In this document: positions 6,331-51,285 of the stretch, piece after piece
Layout: each line of letters begins with the position of its first letter
Numbering within the stretch: the first letter of the stretch is position 1
Source: Myxococcales bacterium 68-20
Lineage (GTDB): Bacteria > Myxococcota_A > Polyangia > Polyangiales > Polyangiaceae
NCBI GenBank assembly: GCA_001899635.1
Contig: MKVQ01000041.1
Span: forward strand, 1-64,000
Direction of reading: 5' to 3'
DNA: 64,000 nucleotides
Translations under genes and position numbers: made by a program
The notes under the pieces: model-generated
Told to the model about the DNA's origin: nothing
What the model saw: only the letters and a program-made list of their open reading frames with translations
The model's database searches: none

Positions 6331-7934
6331 GTTTCCGCGCTCCGGTACTTGTCCCTCGCCTCTTCGAGGTAGTCCGAGAGCTGCGCGATCCGCTGTGCGA
6401 AGGGTACTTTCTCGATCCCCTGAAGACGATCGACCTCGCCGAATCGAGCGAGCAGCACGCTGATCTCGAGCCACGTCTCTTCACGCGCGCGGAAGTGGTC
6501 GCGCTTCTTCGCCTTGGTCTCCGGCCCCCACGCGTTGGCCGCCTCTTCGTAGGCGGCGTGGTGCCGTTTCAGCTGTCCGTTCAACCCCGCGAGCTTCTCC
6601 CGCTCGGCAGCGCGCGCGTCCTGCGGTGACGAGGACTGGAGCTCGGCACGGTAGGCCTGCACGCGCTCGACGATGCGGGTCGCAAGCAGATGCGGGATCC
6701 CGGCGACGTGCGCGATGTCGTGCGCGTTCGCCTCGAAGAGCACGGTCAGGCCCGTGAGACCGGCGGCGTGCAGCTTGTCGATCGTGACCTTGCGGACGTC
6801 TGGCACCTGGAGCAAGAGCGCCTGCACGATGACGGCCTCGCGCTGCGTCTGGTCGCGATCGAGCCCGAACGCCTGCGGGAGGATCGCCACGAGCTCGCCG
6901 TACGTGTCGAGCAGTCGCTCCTTCTCGTTCGCGTCGAGCATCTGCCCGCCCACGGCGTTCGCGGCATCGAGCTCGTCGCCCAGCTTCTCGAGGGCCGCTC
7001 CGAGCTCGACGAGGTCGAGACGCTCGGCCGCCTTGCGGAGCGTGCGCACGGGCGGGACGCAGATGTGGATCCAGTCGCGAGTCACCTCTCCCCACTTCAC
7101 GTCGATCATGAAGTCGCGCACGTGGCGCATGTGATTCGCGGCGAGCTCCGCGAAGAGCTCCCGCACGGGCGCGAGATCGAAATCGTGCGTCCCGGGGAGG
7201 CCGGCACGGTCCTCGGACACGAGCGCATCGAACGCAAAGGCGATCGAGCCCTCGTCGAGCCCTTCGAGCGAGAACGCGGGCGCACCCGACGGCACCTTCG
7301 GCGGATGCGACGAGCTGTTGCGACTGCCATCCGGCGGCGCCCCCGACGCGGGACGGGCAGCGACCGTCGCAACCTCTGCGGTAGCGGTCGGCGCCGGGTC
7401 CAGAGCGGCGTGGCCCGCGTCTGCCGGCTGCTCCGCGAGCATCATCTCTCCGAGCATCGCCAGCTCTTCGCTGAAGTCGCTCGACTTCGCGGGGGGCCGC
7501 ACGTCCGGCAATCGCCCGCTCGTCGGGCCCGTCGCGCTCGGGGTCCGCTGGCTCGGCGGTGGGACGGGCGCGGCATTCCTCGAGGCCGGAGCAGCAGGGG
7601 TCATCCGCGGGCTGGTCGTCCGCGACGGAAGGCCGATCGGCGGCTTCTTCTTGCCGTCGGTTGCGTCCTTCGGCGCGTCGATCGCCGCTCGCGACGCGGC
7701 GATCGACGCACTGCTCGGAGGAGGCGGTTTCATCGGCGCGGAGCCGGGGACGCTTCGTGGCGCCGCGAGCTCCGGCCGGACGGCGGGCATGCGTGTCGTC
7801 GAATCGATTCGCGTCGGAGGCAGGTCGTCGGCGTCGTCGGCAAGCGAATACCGCCCGGGCGACCCCGCCTGCTTCTTCTCGGGTTCGTCCGTCGGCTCGA
7901 CTTTTCCGTCCGGGGATCGCGACGTCGAGCTCAT
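6327..7934 (-). CDS. hypothetical protein with disordered N-terminus and helix-hairpin-helix-like segment
   Basis: A 535-residue protein that I do not recognise. Residues 1-230 are Pro/Ser/Ala-rich and low in complexity, without signal peptide or membrane segment. Residues about 235-535 look folded and mostly helical. Within that part, around residues 405-445, the segment LHAAGLTGLTVLFEANAHDI followed by AGIPHLLATRIVERV resembles helix-hairpin-helix repeats that bind DNA or proteins. An RBS-like GGAGGG abuts the ATG. Roles in DNA binding or signalling scaffolds are possible, but nothing in the neighbourhood fixes one. Confidence 0.75.
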   Translation of the reverse strand: MSSTSRSPDGKVEPTDEPEKKQAGSPGRYSLADDADDLPPTRIDSTTRMPAVRPELAAPRSVPGSAPMKPPPPSSASIAASRAAIDAPKDATDGKKKPPIGLPSRTTSPRMTPAAPASRNAAPVPPPSQRTPSATGPTSGRLPDVRPPAKSSDFSEELAMLGEMMLAEQPADAGHAALDPAPTATAEVATVAARPASGAPPDGSRNSSSHPPKVPSGAPAFSLEGLDEGSIAFAFDALVSEDRAGLPGTHDFDLAPVRELFAELAANHMRHVRDFMIDVKWGEVTRDWIHICVPPVRTLRKAAERLDLVELGAALEKLGDELDAANAVGGQMLDANEKERLLDTYGELVAILPQAFGLDRDQTQREAVIVQALLLQVPDVRKVTIDKLHAAGLTGLTVLFEANAHDIAHVAGIPHLLATRIVERVQAYRAELQSSSPQDARAAEREKLAGLNGQLKRHHAAYEEAANAWGPETKAKKRDHFRAREETWLEISVLLARFGEVDRLQGIEKVPFAQRIAQLSDYLEEARDKYRSAET

Positions 7935-8159
7935 CCCTCCGGACCTTTCAGCGCGCGCAAATCAAGGCTCCGCGAGGGAGCATAACAGGGTCCGCGGCTT
8001 TTTCCGTCTTACTCAGCCGCAGGCCTCGTGACGCACGACGTGCTCCGCGGAGTGGGAGACGGGGCGACACGGCTCGCACATCGGCGGCTCCGCTGGCGCG
8101 CATCGCCTGTGAGTGACGCGAAGCCCGAGACGAGCCGGTCGCCCGCTCGTTCGGCCGGC

Positions 8160-11801
<3,642 letters not shown>

Positions 11802-12212
11802 GAGCGAACAACCAGGGCTGCCTGGGTTACCGCGGTTCGCCGCGTGATGAAAGAGGGGGCTCTCACGAGCGCGGGCGGCGCCTCGTGAACCGCCGGCCGC
11901 GCGGCGTCGCTCGCGCCGCGGCCCTGGCCCCCGCGCTGTCCTCCAGGCCCGCCGTCGCGAGGGCGCGCGCCGCTACGTCGAGGTGCGTCATCGCCGGATC
12001 CGTCGACAGAAACGCGATTGTCTCGATCGAGTCGAGATCCGACTAAGGGGTCGAACGCGCTTGGGCTTTTCTGCAATCATGGCTGGGCTGATGGCTTGCG
12101 TGAGCTCGAGCTTACTGCGTAGCATTCCCCGGCCGCCTTCGTCGGCGACGGGGAGGTGATGCGTGGAACGGCAAGGGTCCAGCGCATCTTTGAGGTGGAG
12201 AGGAGCATTCCC
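11802..12212. other. divergent intergenic region, no gene seen
   Basis: A 411-bp gap between dnaE (minus) and a lipoprotein gene (plus), which must hold both promoters. A minus-strand open frame from 12076 is Arg/Gly-rich with no family resemblance and overlaps the dnaE start, so it was not called. No repeat or RNA gene was seen. Confidence 0.5.
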
Positions 12213-13301
12213 ATGAGGCTTGGAGCAGCGCTAACCGTGATTGGCCTAGGCGCGAGCATCGCGACCTTGGCAGTCACGCAAGGATGTGGCGGCGACTCGT
12301 CGGACGACGCCGGCGGCAAGGACCAGACGGGCAAGGTCGTCCCTGCGAAGGAAGGAAGCCCGACGGCGTCGACCGAGGAGCGCGTGTTCGCGCTCAACTC
12401 GCTCTCGCTCGGCGAGGCAGACCGCGCGGGTAACAAGAACAAGGACGCGTGGAAGAAGTACGGCTACAACCTCGACGGCCTGGTCACCGAGGTCAGCGGC
12501 GCGGAATCGCCGGACCTCGCGCGCGTCTGCAAGCGCGTCCAGGGCGCTCCCGTGGGGCTCCACCAGGACGGCGACCAAGGAATCGACAACGCGTTCGGTA
12601 AGGAGATCCTCAAGCTCCTCGAGCCCTTCACCCCGACGCCGTCGAAGTCGATCACGGACGCGATCACGAAGGGCGACTTCACGATCATGCTCAAGGTCGT
12701 CGGCCTCACGGACGAGCCCGAGCAGACCAACACCGACCTCTCGGGAACGCTCCTCGTCGGCGGCGCGTTCAGCGAGGACGACTCGAAGGCCCCGACCTTC
12801 ACCACGGCCGACGACTGGCCGTACGTGAAAGATCCGCAGGTCGCGATCACGGGCGCCTACATCAACAAGGGCGTCTTCGTGAACGGTACGGGCGGCGCGC
12901 AGGTGAAGCTGGCCATCTCGATCAGCGGCCAGGCCCTGAACCTCACGATCAACAAGGCGATCATCTCCTTCAAGCACAACCCGGCCGGGAAGTCGCTCGA
13001 GGAGGGCACCATCGCCGGTGTCATCACCACCGCGGAGTTCGTCGAAGGCATCAGCGCAGTCGCCGGACGCTTCAGCACCGACCTCTGCTCGGGCTCCACG
13101 GTCGAGGGCATCAAGGGCTCGATCCGTCAGGCGAGCGACATCCTCGCGGACGGCAGCCAGGATCCGGGCAAGACCTGCGACGGCATCTCGGTCGCGATCG
13201 GCTTCACCGCCAAGCAGGTCGGCAAGCCGACGAAGGTCGTCGAGCCGGGCGAGCCGCCGCCGGACCCGTGCTCCGCGCCGCAAGGCGACGGCGGTACGTG
13301 A
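12213..13301 (+). CDS. putative lipoprotein of unknown function
   Basis: A 362-residue exported protein. It starts MRLGAALTVIGLGASIATLA followed by a Cys near residue 25 (VTQGC), a plausible though not ideal lipobox, and then a Ser/Asp/Gly-rich linker. The ATG at 12213 is chosen over the in-frame one at 12156 because it gives a clean signal peptide and follows GGAGAGGAG. The mature part contains likely beta-strand segments (VKLAISISGQALNLTINKAI, GTIAGVITTAEFVEGI) and a pair of Cys residues in DLCSG and KTCDG that may form a disulfide. No enzyme motif was recognised. A strong terminator follows at 13341. Confidence 0.8.
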   Translation: MRLGAALTVIGLGASIATLAVTQGCGGDSSDDAGGKDQTGKVVPAKEGSPTASTEERVFALNSLSLGEADRAGNKNKDAWKKYGYNLDGLVTEVSGAESPDLARVCKRVQGAPVGLHQDGDQGIDNAFGKEILKLLEPFTPTPSKSITDAITKGDFTIMLKVVGLTDEPEQTNTDLSGTLLVGGAFSEDDSKAPTFTTADDWPYVKDPQVAITGAYINKGVFVNGTGGAQVKLAISISGQALNLTINKAIISFKHNPAGKSLEEGTIAGVITTAEFVEGISAVAGRFSTDLCSGSTVEGIKGSIRQASDILADGSQDPGKTCDGISVAIGFTAKQVGKPTKVVEPGEPPPDPCSAPQGDGGT

Positions 13302-28147: not shown

Positions 28148-29110
28148 TCAGTCGCAGCTGGCGTTGGTGAGCTCGAACCTCACCGTGTCGACGAAGAAGC
28201 CCATCGCGTCGACGCCGCCGGTCCCTGCGGTGAACCCGAGCGCGATCACGCCGTCGTCATCCTCGTCGACGTCGACGTCGACGTCGGCGAACAGCGTCGT
28301 CGGCGGCCCGTTCGCAGAGAAGCGGAACGTCGCCGACGCCTTTCCGTTCGCGACGACGACGTCGATGGTGCGCCAGGCGTCGTAGAGATCAACCTCGTAG
28401 TACGGGCCCTTCTTCACGATGTGCCAGTCGTACGACCCGGGGTTACCGCGCGACGGATCGATCTCGATGAGGCTGAGCGACGGCGCGCCCGGATCGCCGA
28501 TCAACAGGTTTTGCCAGCCATCGAGCGCGACGGCATGGCCCGCGACGCCCGGAGGAAGCCCGAACCCCTGCCCGGTGACGGCGTTCGTGCCGAGCGCCTG
28601 CGGCCCCTTCGACGTCAGCCACGTGAACGTGAGGCCGTCGCCCTTACTCAGGGAGCTCGGCGTCGAGACGTAGTACGTGAACGACGCCTTGAAGGACGTC
28701 GCCTTGACCGTCGGGAGCCAGAAGAGCCCAGCAGCCCGGTTCCTCTTTCCCTGCTCGATGAGCCTCGCGTAGGCGTTGCCCCCGCTGACGCCCTGCTCGA
28801 CCCCGCCGTAGTGCGTCCAGCTGGCAAGGCCTTGCGCGAAGTTCTCCTCGAACAGCGCCGGGCCGCACGGGCCGGAGTCGACCGGCCCGGCGTCGATCAC
28901 CGTCTCCCCGGGAAGCGCAGCATCGAACGTCGGGGCCTCGCCGCCGTCACCGAGCCGCTCCGGCGCCTGCGTCTCGGGCTCGGTGGGCACCGCGGCGTCC
29001 CCGAGGGACGACGCCGGGCCCAGGCCACCGACCACGTCGAGGCCGCACGCCACCAGCGCGGAGGTCGCGAGCGCAGCCGCGCCGAGGATGAAACGAGGGC
29101 CGCTGCGCAT
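28148..29110 (-). CDS. lipoprotein with lectin-like (concanavalin A-like) domain
   Basis: A 320-residue exported protein. The signal peptide ends in a lipobox (ALVAC, Cys near residue 22), followed by a Pro/Asp/Glu-rich linker to about residue 80. The mature domain resembles L-type lectin or glucanase-like jelly rolls: FEENFAQGLASWTHYGG near 88-104, KASFTYYVSTPSSLSKGDGL TFTW near 140-163, a long acidic segment DVDVDVDEDDDG near 275, and GFFVDTVRFEL at the end. It may bind a surface sugar with calcium; the ligand is inference. It stands alone on the minus strand. Confidence 0.72.
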   Translation of the reverse strand: MRSGPRFILGAAALATSALVACGLDVVGGLGPASSLGDAAVPTEPETQAPERLGDGGEAPTFDAALPGETVIDAGPVDSGPCGPALFEENFAQGLASWTHYGGVEQGVSGGNAYARLIEQGKRNRAAGLFWLPTVKATSFKASFTYYVSTPSSLSKGDGLTFTWLTSKGPQALGTNAVTGQGFGLPPGVAGHAVALDGWQNLLIGDPGAPSLSLIEIDPSRGNPGSYDWHIVKKGPYYEVDLYDAWRTIDVVVANGKASATFRFSANGPPTTLFADVDVDVDEDDDGVIALGFTAGTGGVDAMGFFVDTVRFELTNASCD

Positions 29111-30481: not shown

Positions 30482-30961
30482 TCACATGCCAGCAAGGATC
30501 TTGAAGCTCTCGCCCTCGGGCACGAGCTCGAGCCGGTTGTCCGCGACGGTGTGCTTCCACTCTTCACCCTTCAGCCCCGGGATCCGGTAGCTCGCCGAGT
30601 ACGTGTACTCGACGAAGACCCGGTTGTTCTCGTTCACGCTGACCCTTCGGTAGCGGATCTCGTAGCGGATCGTCTGCGTCTTGACGAACGTGGAGGTGAG
30701 GTAGTCCTTGAGGCCGTCGAAGTCGATGTCGTCCTCGGGGTTGGTGTTCCCCCCGTCCTCGAAATAGCGCGGGCTCGCCATGTGGATCAGCTTGCCGACG
30801 TCCTTTTCCTCGACCGCGTGCCGGTAGTCCTCGCAGAACGAGATGACCTTGCGGTTCTCGCTCGTGTTCTCGACGTCGGTGTTCGGGATGTACGACTTCG
30901 AGCACGCTCCCACGAAAACGAGGGAACCAGCGACGAAGAGCGAGGCGAGCTTGGTATTCAC
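30482..30961 (-). CDS. small lipoprotein with NTF2-like fold (putative)
   Basis: A 159-residue exported protein. Starting from the GTG at 30961, MNTKLASLFVAGSLVFVGAC is a textbook lipoprotein signal peptide with Cys 20. The GTG at 30982 gives a less typical start. The mature chain has the pattern of SnoaL/NTF2-like domains (VISFCEDYRHAVEEKDVGKL, DYLTSTFVKTQTIRYEIRYR, VFVEYTYSASYRI), often a small cavity for a ligand but with no known activity here. It lies 95 bp downstream of the last ketosynthase gene and may or may not belong to that operon. Confidence 0.78.
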   Translation of the reverse strand: MNTKLASLFVAGSLVFVGACSKSYIPNTDVENTSENRKVISFCEDYRHAVEEKDVGKLIHMASPRYFEDGGNTNPEDDIDFDGLKDYLTSTFVKTQTIRYEIRYRRVSVNENNRVFVEYTYSASYRIPGLKGEEWKHTVADNRLELVPEGESFKILAGM

Positions 30962-31056
30962 GAGCGTTGACTCCGACTCCACGATAACAGGCCGACCTCA
31001 GCCTAATTCCCGAGCCGCTCGGCCGTCGAGAACAGCCGCACCGGCAGGCGGCAATA

Positions 31057-32985
31057 TTACATCCAGACGAGGCTGGCCGTGGCAAATCCTCCCCATGGGA
31101 CCTCGGCCGTCACCTGCGCCGGCCGACCTGTGACCAGCGGGAGCAGCGCTCGATGCGCCTCGAGCGGGGGAAGCTCGCTCGGGAGATGGCTCACAGCCTC
31201 GAGGCGAACCGTGCAGAATTCGAGGCGCGCCACGTCGGCGCTCGCGCGATCGGCCGAGACGAGGAGAGCGACCGCGCGGCTCGACGGCTCTTCGCCCGTC
31301 CTCCTGGACCGAGGCGCCGCGATCCGGTGGGTCGCATCGCCGGTTTCGTCGACGGCGACCACGACCACGCGATCCGCGACCCCGGCTCGGACGAGGTCCG
31401 CCGCGACGTGGATGGCCTCGATGCCGCCGTGTGGCCCACCGCCGACGGCGAAGGCCGGGCCGGTGAGCCCGAACGCAACCGCGCACTCACCAGCGGCCGC
31501 GTTCGGCGTCGTGTAAGGGAAGCGCCTCGGCTCCGCGCGGGAGGCGCCCGCCGCACGGACGCGGTTCCAGAAGCGGGCGTTGGTCTCGACGGTGGCGAGC
31601 CCATGCCCGACGATGATGCCCGCCCCCCGGAGAGCTCCCGGTCCGCCGGCGCGGTCCTCGAGCACGGCGGTCGCGGCCATCGCGAGACGCACGAGCTCAT
31701 CGGCGCGTGCGATCCGATCGGCGCCGTAGCCGGTGCGCTGGGCCAGGAGCGCGGGGTCGGCGGTCGCGGCGTCGGCCGTGACCGCGCTCGAGACGAAGAC
31801 GTCCGCCCGCAACGCGCGGCGTCCCTCGGGTCGATCGACGCTCACCACGAGCGCCGCGTTCGCGCCGCCGAACGCCGACGATAGCTTCAGCGCCGTGCGC
31901 GCCTGCGAAGGCTCGGCGCGATCGAGGAGACGGAGCCCCGCCTCCGGCACGCCCTCGCCGACGGACGCCGGCGCGACGCCTTCGCGAAGTGCCCTCGCTG
32001 CAGAGAGCACCTCGAGCGCGCCGGCTGCACCGAGCGTATGACCGACCGATCCCTTGAGCGAGTAGACCGGCACCTCGCGCGCCGCCGTCCCGAGCACGGC
32101 GGCTATCGCCGCTGCCTCGGACCTGTCGTTCTGCACGGTCGCCGTCCCGTGCGCGCTCACGAGCTCGATCGCGGGGTCGTGCGCCTCCCGTATCGCTGCG
32201 CGCGCGGCTCGTGCGAGGCCCGCCCCCTCCGCATCCGGCGCCGTCAGATGCGTCGCGTCGCACGTCGCTCCGAAGCCGGCGATCCATCCATGGACGCGCG
32301 GTCGTTCGAGGCGCGCCTCCGGATCCCGAACGAGCGCGAGCACCGCGGCCGCCTCCCCGAGCGCAAGCCCGTCTCGGCCCTCTCGGAAAGGCCGCGGGCC
32401 ACGCGCGCTGCACGTCGCGCGCAGACTCTCGAAGCCCGCCGCGACGAAGACGCCCACGGCATCGAACCCTCCGCAGAGCGCGACGTCGCATCGATCATCG
32501 AGCAGCCATGCGCGCGCGAGACCGATCGCGAGCGTGCTCGACGCGCACGCGCCGAGCACGAGCGAGACCGGCTCGAACGCCGCCGGGCGCGCGGCCTGGA
32601 CGAGCGGTCCCACGTACGTCGCTGCGATCGCCTCCGGGACGGACGCGTCGCCAGCCATGTCGAGCAGCCGCTCGAAGGAGCGCATCCCTCCGCTCGAGGT
32701 GCCGATCGCAGCACCGACGCGCAGCGCGCGCCATCCCGGCAGCGCTTCGTCGAGCTCGCCGGCGCAGCTCGCGAGCGCGTGCTCGAGCAGCGCGGTCGCG
32801 CGATCGACGCCGTCGGGGATCGCGATCCGTGCGCGGGCGGCGAACGGCTTCGAGAGCCCAGCCCTCGCGAGCTCCTCGTCGTGCGCCACGCGAGACTCTT
32901 CATGCTCGCCCGCGCGGAGCTTCCCGAGCGCGGCCTCTCCCTCGCCGAGCGGAGAAGCGACCCCTCGCGCCACGATCCCGATCAC
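31057..32985 (-). CDS. ketosynthase with degenerate second ketosynthase-like half (KS-A)
   Basis: A 642-residue protein. Residues 1-375 form a beta-ketoacyl-ACP synthase, with the active-site Cys in LGACASSTLAIG near 149, AHGTAT near 277 and SLKGSVGHTLGAAG near 310, so the full Cys-His-His set is present. Residues about 380-642 repeat the fold in part (RADVFVSSAVTADA, PAFAVGGGPHGGIEAIH), but the Cys motif is replaced by GGGPHGG and it looks catalytically dead, like a chain-length factor. It should condense acyl units on ACP. The start GTG overlaps the upstream lipoprotein stop (GTGA). It is the last gene of a four-gene operon. Confidence 0.88.
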   Translation of the reverse strand: MIGIVARGVASPLGEGEAALGKLRAGEHEESRVAHDEELARAGLSKPFAARARIAIPDGVDRATALLEHALASCAGELDEALPGWRALRVGAAIGTSSGGMRSFERLLDMAGDASVPEAIAATYVGPLVQAARPAAFEPVSLVLGACASSTLAIGLARAWLLDDRCDVALCGGFDAVGVFVAAGFESLRATCSARGPRPFREGRDGLALGEAAAVLALVRDPEARLERPRVHGWIAGFGATCDATHLTAPDAEGAGLARAARAAIREAHDPAIELVSAHGTATVQNDRSEAAAIAAVLGTAAREVPVYSLKGSVGHTLGAAGALEVLSAARALREGVAPASVGEGVPEAGLRLLDRAEPSQARTALKLSSAFGGANAALVVSVDRPEGRRALRADVFVSSAVTADAATADPALLAQRTGYGADRIARADELVRLAMAATAVLEDRAGGPGALRGAGIIVGHGLATVETNARFWNRVRAAGASRAEPRRFPYTTPNAAAGECAVAFGLTGPAFAVGGGPHGGIEAIHVAADLVRAGVADRVVVVAVDETGDATHRIAAPRSRRTGEEPSSRAVALLVSADRASADVARLEFCTVRLEAVSHLPSELPPLEAHRALLPLVTGRPAQVTAEVPWGGFATASLVWM

Positions 32986-33821
32986 AGGGTCGTCCCTTTC
33001 TCGTCGGGGTCGAGGAAGGCCTCCGGATCCGGCTCGTCGGGAAGGACCTCTTCGACCACGACGTCCACCCGGACGCCCCATTCGCCGTCGATGTAGCGAC
33101 CGCGTGCGCCCGCGCGGGGCGCAAGGCCGCGGCCCGACCACTCGAGCCCTTCGAGGTGACCGTCCTCGCGCCGGATCGCGACGAAGCGCTCTCCATCGGT
33201 TCGCATCGTGATCGTCGCGGGTCCGTCGCGGAGGAGGAAGACCGACTCTTCTTTGCTCGAACGTGCAAGCACGAGCTTGCCGTCGAGGGGCGCGAGGAAC
33301 CACCAGCGGAGCAGTCCGATCGGGAGACCTCGCGTCTCGGAGAGCGAGGCCCCGCCCCGCTTCTCGAAGCCCATCGACGGGATCGACAGGCGGAAGCGAT
33401 CGCGCGTCACCCACACGTCGAGCGCGGTCGTTCCGCCGGGGCCGAGCAGGACGAGGCGCGCCGCGCGGTCGGGGCTCACGGCCACCGCGCCGCGCGCCTG
33501 ATAGACCTTGCCGGTCCGCGGGTCGACGATGCCGATCTGCACGCGCTCGACGTACGGTCTCTGCGGGAGCTCGCTCCGCATGCGTCCGAGGCGCTCACGC
33601 GAGAGCGTCCACTCCGTCTGTCCGACGGCCGGCACCTCCGCATGCCTCCGCGGATCTCCGTGGATGATCGTATACGCCCTCGTGACCGGCGGCGCTGGCC
33701 CGCAGCCGAGCGCCGCGCTCGAGCACACGAGCGCGAGCACGGTCCCAGCAGTGCGGACGATCCCGCGCGATCCGCTCCGGGTCGCGGTCTCGTTCGTCGG
33801 ATGCGAGGCGCGCCGGCTCAC
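32982..33821 (-). CDS. lipoprotein of the ketosynthase operon
   Basis: A 279-residue exported protein. The signal peptide ends VCSSAALGC (lipobox Cys near residue 40). The mature domain is mostly beta: VERVQIGIVDPRTGKVYQ, ARGAVAVSPDRAARLVLLGP and LDVWVTRDRFRLSIP recall LolA/LolB-like lipoproteins and the DUF3261 proteins of aryl-polyene loci; the match is by pattern only. It may carry the lipid product of the operon to the outer membrane. The GTG at 33821 overlaps the KS-B stop (GTGA), and its own stop overlaps the KS-A start, so translation is coupled both ways. Confidence 0.75.
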   Translation of the reverse strand: MSRRASHPTNETATRSGSRGIVRTAGTVLALVCSSAALGCGPAPPVTRAYTIIHGDPRRHAEVPAVGQTEWTLSRERLGRMRSELPQRPYVERVQIGIVDPRTGKVYQARGAVAVSPDRAARLVLLGPGGTTALDVWVTRDRFRLSIPSMGFEKRGGASLSETRGLPIGLLRWWFLAPLDGKLVLARSSKEESVFLLRDGPATITMRTDGERFVAIRREDGHLEGLEWSGRGLAPRAGARGRYIDGEWGVRVDVVVEEVLPDEPDPEAFLDPDEKGTTL

Positions 33822-35983
33822 GGCGCCGGGTCCGGAGGCCACACGGTCCCAGCGTACCCCCAGCCGCGCGAGCTTCCCACGAAGAGCGCAGCCTTGGCGT
33901 CACCGCGCGCCACCTTCGCAGCCGCGACCGCTATCGCGACGCTGCCCGCGGCCTCGTGCTCGCCACACGCACCGGCGCAGACGATCCGCGGGCACGTGCT
34001 CCAGCTCGACGCGAGCACGAGCTCTTCGGCGTGCTCGGTCCCGAGCACGACGATGCCTCCTTCTTCCGGAGGAGGCGGGAGACCTGCCATCACGCCGTCG
34101 CTCGAGCCGTTCGCGAACGAAACGATGTCACCGAGCCGCGCGAGCGCGGGAACCCCGGCGTCGGCGGCAGCGAGCGCAACGACAGCGCCCCCCTCACGTC
34201 GGGACGTGGCTCCGCCGCTGGCGAAGACGACCGAGAGCACCTCCTCCACGATCGCGCTCCGCTCCTCCACCGCGCCGGCGCACATCCGATCGACGTCTCC
34301 GGCAGCGATGAGCTCGCACGCCTGGAGGACGGCGCACTCGCCCGACACGGCGAGATCCGCCACGACGAGCGCAGGACCGTCGAGCCCGAGGTAGATCGAC
34401 ACGTACCCCGCGGGCGAGCTCGGCACGAGGCTCGGGAACTCCGCCGGACGCACCATCCGGGGGCCCTTGTCGCGCAGTCGGCGCATGAACTCGGCGGTCG
34501 CGTCGACCGCGCCGAAGGCGACGCCGAGCACGACCCCCACGCCCGGCGCGACGGGGCCGAGCGCGCGGCCGCAGGCGATCGCGCCGATGCGCGACGTACG
34601 GTCGAGACGACGAGCCTTCTCGGCGTCGAGCGCGCCGTCGGGAATGACGACCGCCGCTCCCTGAGCGAGCGACGCGGGCACGTCCGCCACACTCGTCCCC
34701 TCGACGATGCCGCCCGGCGTGACGACGGACATCCCGGTGACGACGATGCCACGCCTCTTCCTCGACACCGGCGCGACGCGCTCGCGATGACCGAAGACGA
34801 GCGCGGCGTCCATCCCACCGAAGCCGAACGAGCTCGAGATCGCCGCGCCGATGGGCCGGCTCTCGGCGCTCGTCACGTGACGGAGATGGGCACACTCGGG
34901 ATCGACCTCCTCGAGGCCAGCCGTCGGTGGGACGATCCCGCGCTCGATCGCGAGCGCCGTGATCACCGCCTCGATCGCGCCGGCGGCCGCGAGCGTGTGA
35001 CCGATCATGCCCTTCTGACTCGAGACCGGGACGCGCCCGACGTCGTCGCTGAACAGACGAGCGAGCGCGCGTGCCTCCATCGGATCGTTGAGCGGCGTCC
35101 CCGTCCCGTGCGCGTTGACGTAGTCGATGTCGCTCGGGGCGAGCCCGGCGCGCTCGAGAGCAGCGGCCATCGCGGCCAGCGGCGCCGCGCCCGTCGCCTC
35201 CGGGTTCGTGATGTGGTGCGCCTCGGAGCGTGCTCCCCAACCGAGGAGCGTGCACACGACGCTCTCTCGCGCGGCGTCCGCGCTCCGCTCGAGGACGAGC
35301 ATCCCCGCGCCCTCGCCGAGCGTGAGCCCACGGCGGCGCGCGTCGAAGGGGCGGGCGCCGTTCGGGTCGAGCGCGCCGAGCGCGCTGAAGCCGCTCACGA
35401 TCACGCGGCAGAGCGAATCTGCCGCGCCGCAGAGCACCGCGTCGACCACGCCGAGCTCGAGCCACGTCGCCGCGACGGCGAGCGCGTTGGCCCCGCTCGA
35501 GCACGCGCTCGAGAGCGAGCGCGCACGAGCGAACGGTCCGAGCTCCTTCACGAGACGATCGGTCGGCGCGCTCAACGGATGGCTCAACATCCTCGACAGC
35601 GCCGCTTCACGTCGCGGATCGGCAGGCCCTCCGCGACGCGCCTCCGTCGACAGGAGCGTCGCGAGGATCGACTCGGTCTCGAACATCCCCGCTGTCGTCC
35701 CGCCGAGCACGAGGCCGACACGACGCGAGCGAACGTCGAGCTTCGCATCCGCGATGGCCTCGCGCGCAGCGAGTAGCGCGAGCTCGCTCGTCCGCGACAC
35801 CGACGGATCGGACGGCATCGCGAGGTCGACGACCTCGGCGACGACCTTAGACCGCACCTCGCCGGGGTCGAAGAGAGACAGCTCACGAAGGCCACGCTCG
35901 CCCAGGGCGATCCGCTCGAACGTCGTGCGCGCGGTCCCGCCGAGCGCGGTGACCGCGCCGACGCCCGTGACGACGATCGTCAC
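33818..35983 (-). CDS. ketosynthase with degenerate second ketosynthase-like half (KS-B)
   Basis: A 721-residue protein. Residues 1-400 are a complete beta-ketoacyl-ACP synthase II-like domain: Cys in SSACSSGANALAV near 159, VNAHGTGTPLND near 290 and KGMIGHTLAAAG near 325. A second, weaker ketosynthase-like half covers about 410-721 (GIVVTGMSVVTPGG, GPALVVADLAVSGECAVLQA), where the nucleophile motif is not conserved. This resembles KS/chain-length-factor pairs fused into one chain. The ATG overlaps the ACP stop by 4 bp. The KS-A gene of the same operon has the same design with an independent degenerate half. Confidence 0.9.
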   Translation of the reverse strand: MTIVVTGVGAVTALGGTARTTFERIALGERGLRELSLFDPGEVRSKVVAEVVDLAMPSDPSVSRTSELALLAAREAIADAKLDVRSRRVGLVLGGTTAGMFETESILATLLSTEARRGGPADPRREAALSRMLSHPLSAPTDRLVKELGPFARARSLSSACSSGANALAVAATWLELGVVDAVLCGAADSLCRVIVSGFSALGALDPNGARPFDARRRGLTLGEGAGMLVLERSADAARESVVCTLLGWGARSEAHHITNPEATGAAPLAAMAAALERAGLAPSDIDYVNAHGTGTPLNDPMEARALARLFSDDVGRVPVSSQKGMIGHTLAAAGAIEAVITALAIERGIVPPTAGLEEVDPECAHLRHVTSAESRPIGAAISSSFGFGGMDAALVFGHRERVAPVSRKRRGIVVTGMSVVTPGGIVEGTSVADVPASLAQGAAVVIPDGALDAEKARRLDRTSRIGAIACGRALGPVAPGVGVVLGVAFGAVDATAEFMRRLRDKGPRMVRPAEFPSLVPSSPAGYVSIYLGLDGPALVVADLAVSGECAVLQACELIAAGDVDRMCAGAVEERSAIVEEVLSVVFASGGATSRREGGAVVALAAADAGVPALARLGDIVSFANGSSDGVMAGLPPPPEEGGIVVLGTEHAEELVLASSWSTCPRIVCAGACGEHEAAGSVAIAVAAAKVARGDAKAALFVGSSRGWGYAGTVWPPDPAP

Positions 35984-36246
35984 GAGCTCTTCGAGCGTTC
36001 GATGAACTCCGCGAGCGTGCTCACCGAACGGAAGATGGGACGCGCTTCGTCGCCTTCGGGAACACGAACCGCGAAGCGCTCCTCGACGAGCATCGCGATC
36101 TGGAGCGCATCGAGCGAATCGAGCCCGAGGCCACCTTCTCCGAAGAGCGGGGCATCGTCTGCGATCGTCGCCGGATCTCTTCCGGAGAGGTTCAGCTCGG
36201 AGACCAGCAGCGCCTTGATTTCGCTAGTGAGGGCGGGACTTGGCAT
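35980..36246 (-). CDS. acyl carrier protein
   Basis: An 88-residue acidic ACP. The phosphopantetheine site is the Ser in GLGLDSLDALQI near residue 43; flanking helices are normal (ALTSEIKALLVSEL, STLAEFIERS). It carries the growing acyl chain as a thioester. It is the first gene of the operon with two ketosynthases, and its stop overlaps the KS-B start (ATGA). It is not next to fabD/fabF/fabG, so it is not the housekeeping fatty-acid ACP. A specialised acyl or polyene pathway is the likely setting. Confidence 0.9.
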   Translation of the reverse strand: MPSPALTSEIKALLVSELNLSGRDPATIADDAPLFGEGGLGLDSLDALQIAMLVEERFAVRVPEGDEARPIFRSVSTLAEFIERSKSS

Positions 36247-36563
36247 GAAGCGAGTCTGGACGGGCCCAGCTTGGTGACGAGGCCTCGCATGGAGGCGCGA
36301 CGACGGCCGCGCTGAATCGAACGGGAGGCCGAACCGGATGCATCGGAAGACCTGCGCTTCGAGTACCACGAGCGCGCTCTGCCGCCAACTTGGGCTGCCG
36401 AGCGCGACGGCGGCGATCGCTCGAAGCGCTGCCGACGAGCTGTAGTAAGCTGCCGCCGGTTCGCCACGACGGCAAAACTGGAAGAGGGCCGAAGGCCGTC
36501 TCTGCGGGTGGTCGGAGCACCTTCCAGGTGGTTGGGGCGCAGCCCCGAGTTCAGGAGAATACG
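36247..36563. other. divergent intergenic region with repeat copy
   Basis: 317 bp between the ACP operon (minus) and the enoyl-CoA hydratase gene (plus). It should hold the operon promoter, but no consensus is visible. The right part (36487-36552) is a copy of the family 1 repeat, so the hydratase ribosome site AGGAG at 36553 directly follows a repeat. Confidence 0.5.
36487..36552 (+). repeat. dispersed intergenic repeat, family 1 (long copy)
   Basis: It includes GGCCGAAGGCCG, CTGCGGGTGGTCGG, then CAGGTGGTTGGGGCG and CAGCCCCGAGTTC. The GTTGGGGCGCAGCCCC core differs at one base from the palindrome of the other copies. The sequence GGTGGT is repeated within it, as if the element had been partly duplicated. 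Confidence 0.7.
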
Positions 36564-37358
36564 ATGGGCGCGCTCGTCAACTACAGGACCGAGAAGGGTG
36601 TCGCGGTCCTCACCCTCAACGACCCGCCGGTCAACGCGTACAGCTACGAGATGCTCAAGGAGCTCGACGCGTGCATCCTCGAGGCGCGCTTCGACAACGA
36701 CGTCCACGTGATCGTCGTCACCGGCCATGGAGACAAGTTCTTCAGCGCCGGCGCGAACATCAACATGCTCCGAGAGGCAGATACGACCTTCAAATACTAC
36801 TTCTGCCTCCACGCAAACGAGACCGTCACGCGGCTCGAGCAGACGCCGAAGCTCTGCATCGCCGCGATCAACGGCCATTGCGTCGGTGGCGGCCTCGAGA
36901 TCGCGCTCGCGTGCGACATGCGCATCGCGCGCAGCGGCGACTTCCAGTTCGGCCTCCCCGAGGTCGCGCTCGGCGTCCTCCCCGGCACCGGGGGCACCCA
37001 GCGGCTCGGACGCCTCGTCGGCAAGTCGCGCGCGATCGAGCTCATGGTCGAGGGCGCGAAGATGAACGCCCAGCGCGCGGTGGACCTCGGCGTCGTGAAC
37101 AAGGTCTGGCAGGCCGAGTCGACCGACGAGTTCCTCCGCATGGTCATCGACTACGGGCACACGTTCTGCCCGCCGAGCGGCGCCGCCATGGCGGTCGGCC
37201 GGATCAAGCGCGCGGTGCAGAGCGGCCTCGAGATGGGGCTCGAGCAGGGGCTCGCCTTCGAGCGCGAGCTCCAGGCGGAGCTCTTCGCGTCGAACGACGC
37301 GAAGGAAGGCCTCACCGCGTACGGCGCGAAGCGCAAGCCCCAGTTCCGCGGTCGCTGA
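36564..37358 (+). CDS. enoyl-CoA hydratase/isomerase family protein
   Basis: A 264-residue crotonase-fold protein. The oxyanion-hole motifs are present (FFSAGANINMLRE near residues 59-71, INGHCVGGGLEIALACDMRI near 100), with a catalytic-type Glu in GLPEVALGVLPG near 133. Such enzymes hydrate enoyl-CoA or handle related acyl-CoA. Length is usual. AGGAG lies 7 nt before the ATG. It is divergent from the ACP operon; no beta-oxidation partner adjoins it, so the pathway is undefined, although a link to that operon is possible. Confidence 0.9.
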   Translation: MGALVNYRTEKGVAVLTLNDPPVNAYSYEMLKELDACILEARFDNDVHVIVVTGHGDKFFSAGANINMLREADTTFKYYFCLHANETVTRLEQTPKLCIAAINGHCVGGGLEIALACDMRIARSGDFQFGLPEVALGVLPGTGGTQRLGRLVGKSRAIELMVEGAKMNAQRAVDLGVVNKVWQAESTDEFLRMVIDYGHTFCPPSGAAMAVGRIKRAVQSGLEMGLEQGLAFERELQAELFASNDAKEGLTAYGAKRKPQFRGR

Positions 37359-38769: not shown

Positions 38770-40371
38770 TCAGCCGGCGCGGGCGAAGAGCTTCGCGTAA
38801 TAGTCGCTGATCGCGTCGCCACCGAGCCGTGTGAAGAACGTCGAATACGCCATCCAGATCGCGAGACCGTTGAGGTCACGGAACATCGGCGGGATGTAGC
38901 GCGGCGGCTTCACGACGCCGTCGTTCACCCGCCTCGCGAGCACGGGGACGTCCTCGTGCGCGACCTTGCCGACGAACAGGTATGGCAGGAGATCCACCCT
39001 GTTGTGCTGGATCGCGCTCCGGATGAATGCGTAGTTGAGAACGATCCCCTTGCAGTAGCAGGCGTCCTTCGTGAACGGCGCACCGCCCTCGATCACGCCG
39101 CCGCGGAAGATCCGGCGCGTGTTGTGGAAGCACTCCTCCTCGTCGTAGCCCTCGGTGCGGAACCACTCGAAGACTTCGAGGAAGTTCGCGCCGTCCTCGG
39201 CCTTGTCGACGGCGAGCACGCGATCGTTGAGCCTCCGCGCGCGCCGCGGGTACGTCCGGAACGTGAAGATCTCGCAGAGCGCCGCGAGCCCCTCCTGCAC
39301 CGTCGTCGTCCGCGGAGGCCCCTTCGAGAGCCAGCGCGCCACCGCCTGCGCCTGGCCGTTGAGCGACGTCGCGACGTGCACCCAGCCCTCGTGGACCTCG
39401 AGGATGTCGATGTCTCGCTGCGAGAACCTCGCGCCCGAGCGGACCTTCACGTAGTCGCTGCCCGCAGCAGCGTCGCTCAGGATGGTGTCGTCGACCTCGA
39501 CCCTCACCGCGGCGTCGCCGAAGTAGCTGGTGAGCCGCTGGTTCAGCTCCGACGCCGCCTCCGCCGCGGGGATGTTGCGCTCGTACTGGATGCCGAGGAG
39601 CGACTCGTCGATGTTCGTGAGGATCTCGTAAAGGAGGTGCCCGAGATCGCGCAGCGTGGCGATGCCGTCGGGGAACTTGTCCTTCGGAGACCCGTAGAGC
39701 TTGCGGGAGTAGGCGTAGAAGACCGGCGTGCTGCGCGCCGCGAGCATGCGAGCGACGTCGCGGTACTCGAGCGCCGTCCGCGCGAGGATCGCTCCGATGG
39801 CGTCGGCCTCGCCGAGCTCGCGATCGACGTCGCGCGCGATCTCCTCGTAGACGGCGACCTTCGCGCTCGGATCGAAGCCGAGCGGGTTCCGGTCGTAGTA
39901 CTCGCCGTCGACCTTCGGGAGCTCACGGTAACGCGACTTCTTGAACTGCTCCTCGACGTCGTTGTCCCAGCGGATGGCCTGGAGCACACGGATCTCGCGC
40001 TGCGCGTCGACGATGCGCTGCGCGAGGCCGGCGACGATCTCTTTGTAGCTCCGCCATGGTCCTGCGGCCGGGAGCGGCGGGATCGACGGGTGACGCGGCT
40101 CGCCCTCCTCGGGCTCGGCGGCGGCAGCTGTCCCCGGTCGCGATGGACGCGGCGGAGGGACACTTCCTCCCCGCCCCTTCTTCGCCGGCTCGGCGTCGAC
40201 GACGGAGCGGCTCGACGAGGACGGCGGCGGCGGCGGCAACGTCCCGCTCGTGCGGCCGTTGCCGTTCTTCTCCTTGCCCTCGGTCTTGGGCTTGGGCGAC
40301 TCGTCCTCGTCCTTGCCCTTCCGGCGTTCGCTCTCCTGTGAGGACGCGCGATCGGCCATATTCGTTCTCAT
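38770..40371 (-). CDS. DUF1704 (QEGLA) family putative metallopeptidase
   Basis: A 533-residue protein. An N-terminal low-complexity region to about residue 110 (charged, then Pro/Ser-rich) precedes the DUF1704 domain. The zinc motif HEGWVH (HExxxH) is near residue 325 and the diagnostic VQEGLAALCEI near 357, the QEGLA of the older name for this family. Eukaryotic relatives (MATCAP/KIAA0895L) are tyrosine carboxypeptidases, so the bacterial protein is probably a metallopeptidase acting on a C-terminal residue; its substrate is unknown. ATG 40371 or 40359 could be used. The Cys-rich gene follows. Confidence 0.85.
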   Translation of the reverse strand: MRTNMADRASSQESERRKGKDEDESPKPKTEGKEKNGNGRTSGTLPPPPPSSSSRSVVDAEPAKKGRGGSVPPPRPSRPGTAAAAEPEEGEPRHPSIPPLPAAGPWRSYKEIVAGLAQRIVDAQREIRVLQAIRWDNDVEEQFKKSRYRELPKVDGEYYDRNPLGFDPSAKVAVYEEIARDVDRELGEADAIGAILARTALEYRDVARMLAARSTPVFYAYSRKLYGSPKDKFPDGIATLRDLGHLLYEILTNIDESLLGIQYERNIPAAEAASELNQRLTSYFGDAAVRVEVDDTILSDAAAGSDYVKVRSGARFSQRDIDILEVHEGWVHVATSLNGQAQAVARWLSKGPPRTTTVQEGLAALCEIFTFRTYPRRARRLNDRVLAVDKAEDGANFLEVFEWFRTEGYDEEECFHNTRRIFRGGVIEGGAPFTKDACYCKGIVLNYAFIRSAIQHNRVDLLPYLFVGKVAHEDVPVLARRVNDGVVKPPRYIPPMFRDLNGLAIWMAYSTFFTRLGGDAISDYYAKLFARAG

Positions 40372-45769: not shown

Positions 45770-47623
45770 ATGGCCTCGACCTTTCCGACGCTCGCCGCCG
45801 CGCTCGAAGACGCCGCCAAGGCCGACCCGACGCTTGGCTTCCGATTCGTCTCCGAGGACGGTGTTCCCGGCTTCGGGAGCAACACCACGAGCGAGGCATC
45901 GTTCTCCTACACGGCCCTCGAGCGGGCGAGCGCCCGCTACGGCGGCGCCCTCCAGGCGCTCGGTCTCAAGAAGGGCGATCGCGTCGCGCTCATCTGCCCG
46001 GCGAACGAGGACTTCGTCCTCTGCTTCTTCGGCGCGATCCGCGCCGGGATCATCCCGGTCCCCATCTACCCGCCACTCGGCCTCGGCCAGCTCCAGGGCT
46101 ATCTCGACAACACACGCCACATCGTCGCGAAGAGCGGGGCGCGCGCGCTCGTGACCACCGCCCAGATCAAGCGCCTCCTCGGCACCGTTCAGGCGTCGGC
46201 GCCGTCGCTCGAGCAGGTCGTCGCCGTCGAGGCGATCCGCGAGTCGCTCGAGACGCTCAAGCCCACGAAGATCGCGCCCGACGACATCGCGTTCCTCCAG
46301 TACACGAGCGGCTCGACGTCACGGCCCAAGGGCGTGACGCTCACCCACGAGAACCTGATGGCCAACGTGCGCTGCATCATGCACGACGGCCTGCAGGTCA
46401 CGCCCGAAGACCGCGGCATCTCGTGGCTGCCGCTCTACCACGACATGGGGCTCATCGGCTTCGTCCTCGCCCCGGTCGCGTATCGCATCCCCGTCGTCTT
46501 CCTGCCGCCACTGCTGTTCCTCAAACGGCCGGTCTCGTGGCTCCAGGCCTTCACCCGCCACAAGGGCACGATCGCCTATGCGCCCAACTTCGCCTTCGCG
46601 CTCTGCGTGAAGCGCATCCGCGACCGCGAGCTCGAGAACATCGACCTCTCCACCTGGCGCGTCGCCGGCTGCGGCGCCGAGCCGATCCGGCCCGAGACGC
46701 TCGAGGCCTTCGCAGAGAAGTTCGGCAAGGTCGGCTTCCAGTCGAAGGCGCTGCTGCCGTCCTACGGCATGGCCGAGTCGTCGCTGGCGATTTCGTTCTC
46801 CGCGGTCGGCGAAGGGATGAAGACCATCTCCGTCGACGGCGAGACCCTCTGGGCGGAGAACAAGGCGAAGCTCGTTGCCGAAGACGATCCGCGCGCCGTT
46901 CGGCTCGTGTCCTGCGGACCGAACTTCCCGCTCCACGAGATCGCGGCGTTCGCGCCGGACGGCACGACCGCGAGCGCGCCGCTTCCCGAAGACAGCGTCG
47001 GCGAGCTCCGGATCAAGGGCCCGAGCGTGATGAAGGGCTACTGGGAGGACGTCGAGCGGACGAAGGAGTCGTTCGTCGGCGAATGGCTGAAGACCGGCGA
47101 CCTCGGCTTCGTCCACGACGGCGACGTGTACATCTGCGGCCGCTCGAAAGAGGTCATCATCGTCAACGGCCGCAACTACTACCCCCAGGACATCGAGTGG
47201 GAGGCGAGCCGCGTCGAGGGCGTCCGCAAGGGCAACGTCATCGCGTTCGGCGCGCGCGACAACGTCGAGCGCGATCGCGAGCGCGTGGTCGTCGCGTTCG
47301 AATGCCAGGACGTGCCGAAGTCCACCGAAGCGCGGGACCTCGCGACGGAGAAGCACGCCCTCGTGCAGACCGTCCGCAAGCTCGTCCAAGAAGGCATGGG
47401 CCTCACGCTCGACGACGTCGTCCCCCTCGCGCCCGGCGTCCTGCCGAAGACGTCGAGCGGAAAGCTCCAGCGCGCCAAGACGCGCGAGCTCTACGAGACC
47501 GGTGAGCTCACGCAGCGCAAGGCGCCGCGCGCGGAAGACAAGCTCGGCGTGCTGAAGGAAGCGGCCAAGAGCCAGCTCTCGTACTTCAAGCTCGCCGTCC
47601 TCAGCAGTCGCAAGAAGAGCTGA
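45770..47623 (+). CDS. fatty acyl-AMP ligase (FAAL-like)
   Basis: A 617-residue AMP-forming enzyme that activates a fatty acid to acyl-AMP. The ATP loop is YTSGSTSRPKGVTLTHEN near residue 183. The large domain shows the typical DRGISWLPLYHDMGLIGFV near 217 and YGMAESSLAIS near 333, and the C-terminal hinge reads GRSKEVIIVNGRNYYPQDIE near 460. These last motifs are those of FAAL proteins, which load ACP or polyketide synthases rather than CoA. No PKS adjoins, but the ACP/ketosynthase operon is about 10 kb away. The ATG at 45770 is used. Confidence 0.9.
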   Translation: MASTFPTLAAALEDAAKADPTLGFRFVSEDGVPGFGSNTTSEASFSYTALERASARYGGALQALGLKKGDRVALICPANEDFVLCFFGAIRAGIIPVPIYPPLGLGQLQGYLDNTRHIVAKSGARALVTTAQIKRLLGTVQASAPSLEQVVAVEAIRESLETLKPTKIAPDDIAFLQYTSGSTSRPKGVTLTHENLMANVRCIMHDGLQVTPEDRGISWLPLYHDMGLIGFVLAPVAYRIPVVFLPPLLFLKRPVSWLQAFTRHKGTIAYAPNFAFALCVKRIRDRELENIDLSTWRVAGCGAEPIRPETLEAFAEKFGKVGFQSKALLPSYGMAESSLAISFSAVGEGMKTISVDGETLWAENKAKLVAEDDPRAVRLVSCGPNFPLHEIAAFAPDGTTASAPLPEDSVGELRIKGPSVMKGYWEDVERTKESFVGEWLKTGDLGFVHDGDVYICGRSKEVIIVNGRNYYPQDIEWEASRVEGVRKGNVIAFGARDNVERDRERVVVAFECQDVPKSTEARDLATEKHALVQTVRKLVQEGMGLTLDDVVPLAPGVLPKTSSGKLQRAKTRELYETGELTQRKAPRAEDKLGVLKEAAKSQLSYFKLAVLSSRKKS

Positions 47624-50871: not shown

Positions 50872-51285
50872 ATGTCGGTCGTCTATCGACGTGCGGTCCG
50901 CTTCGAAGAGGTCGATGCCGCCGGCATCGCCTTCTTCGCGCGCTTCTTCAACTGGTGCCACGAGGCGATGGAGCGCTTCTTCGACGGAGTGCCTGGCGGC
51001 TACGTCGACCTCATCACCCGCCGGCGCATCGGGTTCCCAGCGGTGCACCTCACGGCCGACTGGAAGACGCCGCTCCGCTACGGGGACGTGGCGAACATCG
51101 AGACCGCCGTGGCCAAGCTCGGGACCACCTCCGCGACGCTCCGCTACGTGCTCACGCGCGAGTCCGACGGCGCTCATGTGGCGACGATCGAGCACGTCAC
51201 CGTCGCCACCAATCTCGACACGATGACGAAGCTTCCCCTCCCCGACGATTGCCGCGCGCTCCTCGAGCTTCATCGCTCGACATGA
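50872..51285 (+). CDS. hotdog-fold acyl-CoA thioesterase
   Basis: A 137-residue thioesterase of the 4-hydroxybenzoyl-CoA/YbgC group. The key Asp is in FEEVDAAGIAFFARFFNWCH near residues 11-30; the rest is a single hotdog fold (GFPAVHLTADWKTPLRYGD near 51-69). It would hydrolyse an acyl-CoA thioester in the cytoplasm. The gene starts 26 bp after the DUF3501 gene and may be cotranscribed, although no link to peroxide stress is known. Confidence 0.88.
   Translation: MSVVYRRAVRFEEVDAAGIAFFARFFNWCHEAMERFFDGVPGGYVDLITRRRIGFPAVHLTADWKTPLRYGDVANIETAVAKLGTTSATLRYVLTRESDGAHVATIEHVTVATNLDTMTKLPLPDDCRALLELHRST

Follow-up and report, generated by a model that had tools for sequence, protein, structure and literature searches.

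A four-gene cassette in Polyangiales encoding two predicted ketosynthase–chain-length factor fusions, an ApeE-like acyl carrier protein and a LolB-like lipoprotein

The window analyzed here is a stretch of 64,000 nucleotides from Myxococcales bacterium 68-20 (contig MKVQ01000041.1, positions 1 to 64,000). Four open reading frames on its minus strand, at 36246-31057, encode an acyl carrier protein (ACP), a first ketosynthase (KS) protein called KS-A (KSA), a lipoprotein (LIPO) and a second KS protein called KS-B (KSB), in that order. An initial annotation, made from the sequence alone, had claimed four minus-strand genes here, and all of them are present exactly as it placed them:

36246-35980, minus strand: ACP, 88 residues; ApeE/PRK09184-like, with the motif GLDSLDAL
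35983-33818, minus strand: KSA, 721 residues; predicted fusion of a KS with a chain-length factor (CLF)
33821-32982, minus strand: LIPO, 279 residues; lipobox ALG-C40, predicted LolA/LolB fold
32985-31057, minus strand: KSB, 642 residues; second putative KS-CLF fusion

All three gene junctions in the window are 4-bp overlaps, and each reads GTGA; the overlaps themselves had been recognized in the initial annotation, with the first of them misread as ATGA. The same junctions can be followed in 46 named loci from Labilithrix, Sorangium cellulosum, Polyangium, Minicystis rosea and uncultured relatives (10 of the loci are cut by contig ends), with distances measured where both genes are called. 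A LIPO-KSB overlap of exactly 4 bp is seen in 26 of 27 called pairs; an overlap of the same length joins KSA to KSB in 7 of the 8 loci that lack LIPO, and ACP to KSA in 7 of 44 relatives. A KSA-LIPO spacing of -4 is recorded in 13 of 30, a count that is unreliable because many LIPO starts are mis-called. Judged by the overlaps that recur in relatives, the coupling of the genes exceeds chance. The order ACP-KSA-(LIPO)-KSB is found in 33 of the 36 uncut loci, including those of Sorangium and Polyangium, so the conservation of gene order on which the initial annotation had staked its proposal is indeed present in related genomes.

The central result concerns the two KS proteins. Each had been taken for a single ketosynthase, and the fusions were overlooked; rather than one ketosynthase, each protein is an intact KS with its Cys-His-His residues, fused to a degenerate half-KS that corresponds to a half-size, ApeC-like CLF. 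This architecture is predicted from a structural model for KSA and from homology for KSB. The halves are as follows:

34778..35983, minus strand: KSA, catalytic KS half, about residues 1-402 (C161, H292, K324, H329)
33818..34756, minus strand: KSA, CLF-like half, about residues 410-721; catalytic column without Cys
31828..32985, minus strand: KSB, catalytic KS half, about residues 1-386 (C147, H279, K311, H316)
31057..31827, minus strand: KSB, CLF-like half; catalytic column without Cys; Ketoacyl-synt_2 match of 1.1e-4, under the cut-off

The four listed residues of the KS half are invariant in 39 KSA sequences and in 34 KSB sequences. In the C-terminal halves, the catalytic column (positioned by eye against FabF) is without Cys in the residue sets, which include the 39 KSA sequences; in the KSA tail, another Cys is often present five residues beyond that column. 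ApeC itself is described as half-size, with a single thiolase domain (PMC8358021). Profile comparison with hhalign relates the CLF half of KSA to the ApeC profile with a probability of 97.1% (pairwise E 4.8e-11) and that of KSB with 95.4% (E 1.7e-8); the two CLF halves match each other with 99.2% (E 8.6e-20), and a control with an unrelated family gives 0.04%. The KSA tail against a single E. coli ApeC sequence reaches only 2.6%, and hhalign with single sequences is too weak to use. With PF13723, the C-terminal half of KSB scores 22.3 bits against a cut-off of 25, and that of KSA has no match.

For KSA, an AlphaFold2 (AF2) model is available with a pLDDT of 91.6 and a pTM of 0.94. Its top Foldseek match is the KS-CLF didomain of PfaC (6riw; E 4.1e-44, TMq 0.81), which covers both halves in the same arrangement, whereas single KS chains give a TMq of about 0.5. 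The packing of the Cys-less CLF on the KS is read from this comparison for KSA and only from homology for KSB. PfaC is a multidomain subunit of a polyunsaturated fatty acid (PUFA) synthase, as stated in PMC12895367 and PMC8436480; in contrast, the didomain of the cassette is free-standing, its CLF is shorter and its ACP is a separate protein. Precedents for the two elements of the design are thus known, PfaC for KS and CLF in one chain and the aryl polyene (APE) system for a half-size CLF. Fused ApeO-ApeC proteins are also found in some Polyangiales ape gene sets (genomes G017, G107, G126, G138 and G053), and therefore the fusion is not unique to the cassette. Among the loci viewed, fused ApeO-ApeC lies beside other ape genes in L160, L161, L162, L163 and L170, and without ape neighbors within the stretch read in L174 and L074 (7908-9920).

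The ACP has a PP-binding match of 3.2e-8. Against PRK09184 it scores 65.8 bits, with the curated cut-off at 70; 21 of 21 orthologues match this family, and 7 of 10 scanned singly pass the cut-off. For comparison, the E. coli proteins ApeE, ApeF and AcpP score 89.5, 32.7 and 16.8 bits. By these profile scores, the family of ApeE is the one closest to the ACP. The kinship with aryl-polyene loci suggested in the initial annotation is supported for the ACP and the CLF halves, which have relatives in ApeE and ApeC.

LIPO has a predicted LolA/LolB fold, and here too the early suspicion of a Lol-like protein is borne out by structure matches. The model aligns with P. gingivalis LolB (9tpm) over 192 residues with a Z of 15.0 and an rmsd of 3.4, and it matches LolA (2w7q) with an E of 1.2e-7. 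The lipobox Cys is conserved in at least 90% of the sequences. LIPO differs from LolA and LolB in having no sequence-family match, in a conserved motif of its own around LLGPGGTTALDxWV, and in its restriction to genomes that carry KSA or KSB. A Pfam scan of 20 members returned no family except a weak cNMP-binding match in 2 (best E 0.042). The likeness to DUF3261 that had also been proposed fails: none of the 20 members matches, the hhalign probability is 2.0%, and DUF3261 identity is rejected for want of sequence kinship. Identity with ApeL by sequence is likewise rejected, there being no detectable match. DUF3261 was not found in the window's genome; LolA and MMPL elsewhere in it were not searched.

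Two trees place the two KSs relative to known ketosynthases. The first samples 18 of the 46 named loci (19 KSA and 17 KSB rows, including the window) and the second has 11 KSA and 10 KSB rows. In both, KSA and KSB each form one clade (support 100/100), and the two fall together with ApeO in a supported clade (98/92 in the first tree, 99/94 in the second) that is apart from FabF, FabB, ApeR and an unfused type of KS-CLF from the same order. The initial annotation had allowed that the KSs might group with housekeeping FabF; they are separate from it in both trees. The sampled Polyangiales ApeOs join E. coli ApeO in a clade of 17 rows (100/98) that leaves KSA and KSB outside, and the second tree rejects a nesting of KSA and KSB inside Polyangiales ApeO. 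The fork joining KSB to ApeO is unsupported (83/63, second tree). Consistent with this placement, KSA and KSB score 312 and 200.5 bits against PRK09185, under its cut-off of 407, and ApeO scores 556.1.

The distribution was surveyed in 173 genomes of the order with a completeness of at least 80%; we take the order as Polyangiales because the named relatives belong there. Hits were accepted for the C-terminal half of KSA at E<=1e-26 (plus a fragment at a contig edge in G032, 2.1e-24), for that of KSB at E<=1.4e-23, for LIPO at E<=1e-5, for DUF3261 and ApeP at E<=0.001 and for ApeC at E<=1e-13. Weaker KS matches were taken as generic KS or CLF, and weaker ApeC matches in cassette genomes mostly fall within the KSA and KSB frames. 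KSA is present in 69 genomes and KSB in 71, with both in 64 and neither in 97. LIPO is found in 52 genomes, and in all 52 it accompanies KSA or KSB. In G049, ACP-KSA and LIPO-KSB lie on separate contigs, so the co-occurrence holds where the genes lie apart. A phylum-wide sample of 283 genomes has a match to the KSA tail (E<=1e-25) in 24, of which 17 belong to the window's family or to one further family of the order. The other 7, found elsewhere, score between 1e-26 and 1e-34, six of them in frames of 373-546 residues and one (G370) in a frame of 830 residues; given the latter, a fused relative may exist outside the order.

The same survey sets the cassette against the APE genes. Among the 76 genomes with KSA or KSB and the 97 others, DUF3261 is found in 1 versus 33, ApeP in 1 versus 30 and strong ApeC in 0 versus 34 (raw counts, with kinship ignored). 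Within the window's family alone, the corresponding figures are 1 of 71 versus 8 of 32, 1 of 71 versus 5 of 32 and 0 of 71 versus 10 of 32. The cassette and the APE genes are thus nearly exclusive of each other, and for this reason the cassette looks like a sister system of APE more than a reduced APE cluster.

Taken as a whole, we read the locus as a discrete accessory cassette of the type II polyketide synthase (PKS) or fatty acid synthase (FAS) kind, with two KS-CLF synthases that make an outer-membrane lipid, and we regard this reading as about evenly balanced between right and wrong. The dedicated ApeE-type ACP would bear the acyl chain, and KSA and KSB would each act as an intramolecular KS-CLF pair. 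Chain elongation on the cassette's own ACP is suggested because the catalytic residues are conserved and the CLF architecture is present: the N-terminal half would carry out decarboxylative condensation with malonyl-ACP, with the half-size CLF fused to it capping the pocket and setting the chain length. The two synthases may divide the labor between initiation or short chains and completion, as ApeR and ApeO-ApeC do in APE. The beta-keto groups would probably be handled in trans by housekeeping FabG and FabZ, since the cassette has no ketoreductase (KR) or dehydratase (DH) of its own. The chain would then be released onto an envelope lipid, with the LolB-like LIPO assisting the insertion of the product into the outer membrane. 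The product is probably an outer-membrane lipid; this, together with the reductive step, release and delivery, is proposed by analogy with APE as presented in PMC8253772. In the APE system, ApeO-ApeC elongates the chain and Lol-like proteins have been proposed to act in outer-membrane localization (PMC8253772 and PMC8358021).

Several observations weigh against this proposal. No KR, DH, acyltransferase (AT), ligase or thioesterase lies inside the four genes. Of the 76 genomes with KSA or KSB, 24 lack LIPO, as do 7 of the 36 uncut loci, where KSA and KSB abut; delivery by LIPO therefore cannot be obligatory. Another 3 of the 36 have KSA without KSB nearby, and 5 genomes contain only KSA and 7 only KSB, some of them incomplete and some more than 95% complete. 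No sequence likeness of LIPO to ApeN or ApeL is detectable, and the VIA-align alignment of the KSA model spans only residues 1-402 and is silent on the CLF half.

The claim in the initial annotation that no KR or DH lies nearby is correct for dedicated PKS enzymes: ApeQ, ApeI and ApeP are absent from the cassette and the nearest neighbors scanned (ApeI and ApeQ elsewhere were not searched). It is incorrect in one respect, since an enoyl-CoA hydratase is divergently encoded next door (36564-37358, plus strand). A dedicated reductase or dehydratase elsewhere had been suggested as support for a real pathway; in the window's genome this check is negative for ApeP, in a search that included neither ApeI nor dedicated KRs outside the locus. 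The hydratase next door also brings HMG-type beta-branching to mind, a reading that we do not adopt.

The lack of a KR and DH can also be read at face value. In that case the locus would be a minimal non-reducing type II PKS that makes a short poly-beta-keto or cyclized acyl-ACP, like AmcF-AmcG (KS-CYF) in cispentacin biosynthesis. AmcF-AmcG (cispentacin/coronafacic acid) resembles the cassette in pairing a KS with a short partner without functional motifs, as AmcG is described in PMC10698177, and the C-terminal half of KSB has a weak AmcG match (E 1.3e-6, 28.2 bits). The KSB scores of 28.2 and 29.5 bits are, however, far under the curated cut-off of 80, and the C-terminal half of KSA does not match AmcG at all. 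AmcF and AmcG are encoded separately within a seven-gene set, amcB-H, that also supplies a loader, an aminotransferase and a product-releasing hydrolase (same source), whereas no AmcH-like loader is adjacent to the cassette, and a LolB-like lipoprotein would be odd for a soluble product. We consider this explanation unlikely.

Somewhat less likely still is a stripped-down APE pathway that continues to make an aryl polyene and for which starter, KR and DH come from elsewhere. The shared parts speak for it, namely the ApeE-type ACP, the ApeC-homologous CLFs, the ApeO-related KSs and a Lol-fold protein comparable to the Lol-like ApeN and ApeL of APE, as do the fused ApeO-ApeC proteins of some Polyangiales ape gene sets. 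In addition, antiSMASH reports two 'arylpolyene' clusters in the cassette-bearing Minicystis rosea (PMC8436480), and so pipelines may already flag the cassette locus as arylpolyene. Nevertheless, the suggestion of a reduced APE cluster in the initial annotation fits poorly: KSA and KSB are outside the ApeO clade, and the APE genes are almost never in cassette genomes. The cassette further differs from APE in having KS and CLF fused in two such synthases, in lacking KR, DH, ligase and transporter, and in a lipoprotein without a DUF3261 match.

An alternative concerning the extent of the locus is a larger unit that includes two flanking genes, one as a cyclase and the other as a dehydratase. The boundaries of the cassette are marked by the following:

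30482..30982, minus strand: SnoaL/NTF2-like lipoprotein (SNOA), a boundary marker and not part of the cassette
36247..36563: gap of 317 bp between ACP and the divergent enoyl-CoA hydratase; likely promoter region
36564..37358, plus strand: enoyl-CoA hydratase (ECH; Pfam ECH_1), a boundary marker and probably not part of the cassette

A promoter and terminator scan found no sites, and no sigma-70-like site in the gap. SNOA (motif IPNTDVE) follows KSB in 32 of 46 loci. The ECH_1 family is present in the stretches of 28 of 46 relatives and, by map reading, lies directly upstream and divergent in 25 of 46. These recurrences favor a larger unit, but SNOA is found, mostly as a single copy, in 160 of the 173 genomes, and it is not part of the cassette because 89 of them hold it without KSA or KSB. 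It also carries a lipobox, and as a cyclase partner it is rejected, being there whether the cassette is present or not. In two cassette-free genomes (G129 and G155), the aligned parts of SNOA and ECH are only 243 and 177 bp apart; in seven others, SNOA adjoins MATCAP or MoxR genes, which are cassette flanks elsewhere. At least in these cases, the cassette is therefore a discrete unit of four genes that was gained or lost at one site. We find the larger unit improbable, and ECH could still be recruited.

The weakest alternative, that the two KSs are extra housekeeping FabF copies without a dedicated product, draws on TIGR03150 as the top NCBIfam match by score (324.7 and 203.4 bits) and is very improbable, since these scores are far under the cut-off of 493.75, both KSs are apart from FabF in the trees (on which ground FabF identity is rejected), the window's genome has two FabF-like KSs elsewhere, and the distribution is patchy.

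Further genes of possible relevance lie at a distance in the window:

45770-47623: AMP-ligase, about 9.5 kb from the cassette
50872-51285: 4HBT thioesterase, about 14.6 kb from the cassette

No recurrence of either near the cassette was seen among the neighbors of relatives, where only 10 recurring neighbor families were Pfam-scanned. Of the other neighbors, the gene at 38770-40359 belongs to the MATCAP family (microtubule-associated tyrosine carboxypeptidase, E 1.4e-128), which is odd in a bacterium, and its synteny is conserved; the product of 28148-29110 is probably secreted and has a weak L-type lectin domain (6.4e-5, below the cut-off).

Other synthase sets were noted in the order. The window's genome has a second type II PKS-like set (L064, C2:98000-117900, at 6487-13088) with an unfused KS of 411 residues, a full-length CLF-like KS of 389 residues, an orphan of 234 residues, a class I/II aminotransferase and an AMP-ligase; this type of KS is also present in five more genomes of the order. 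The row at L071 (G009:C81, 4732-9543), with an AMP-ligase, a GcvT-like protein, an ACP and a 684-residue KS whose C-terminal half is unassigned, may be yet another kind of cassette.

Returning to the reading as an envelope-lipid cassette, a more specific form of it may be stated, which we put forward tentatively and think rather doubtful. The cassettes would represent a separate Polyangiales class of envelope-lipid synthase, in which two stand-alone KS-CLF fusions, a single ACP and reductive enzymes borrowed from FAS pass a long specialized acyl chain to a cognate LolB-like lipoprotein. Such a class would fill the niche of APE with a different lipid; the same niche is proposed because of the near-exclusive distribution. 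Among the titles and abstract openings listed by searches of open PMC text, none names the combination of two free-standing fusions, one ACP and a Lol-fold lipoprotein.

For soil myxobacteria such as Sorangium, Polyangium and Minicystis, the analysis describes a compact and widely kept cassette, with two clades of free-standing KS-CLF proteins beside ApeO. The predicted fusions would offer a natural single-chain KS-CLF of the type II kind for structural work and engineering, and the near-exclusivity with APE genes makes a swap of one outer-membrane lipid for another directly testable.

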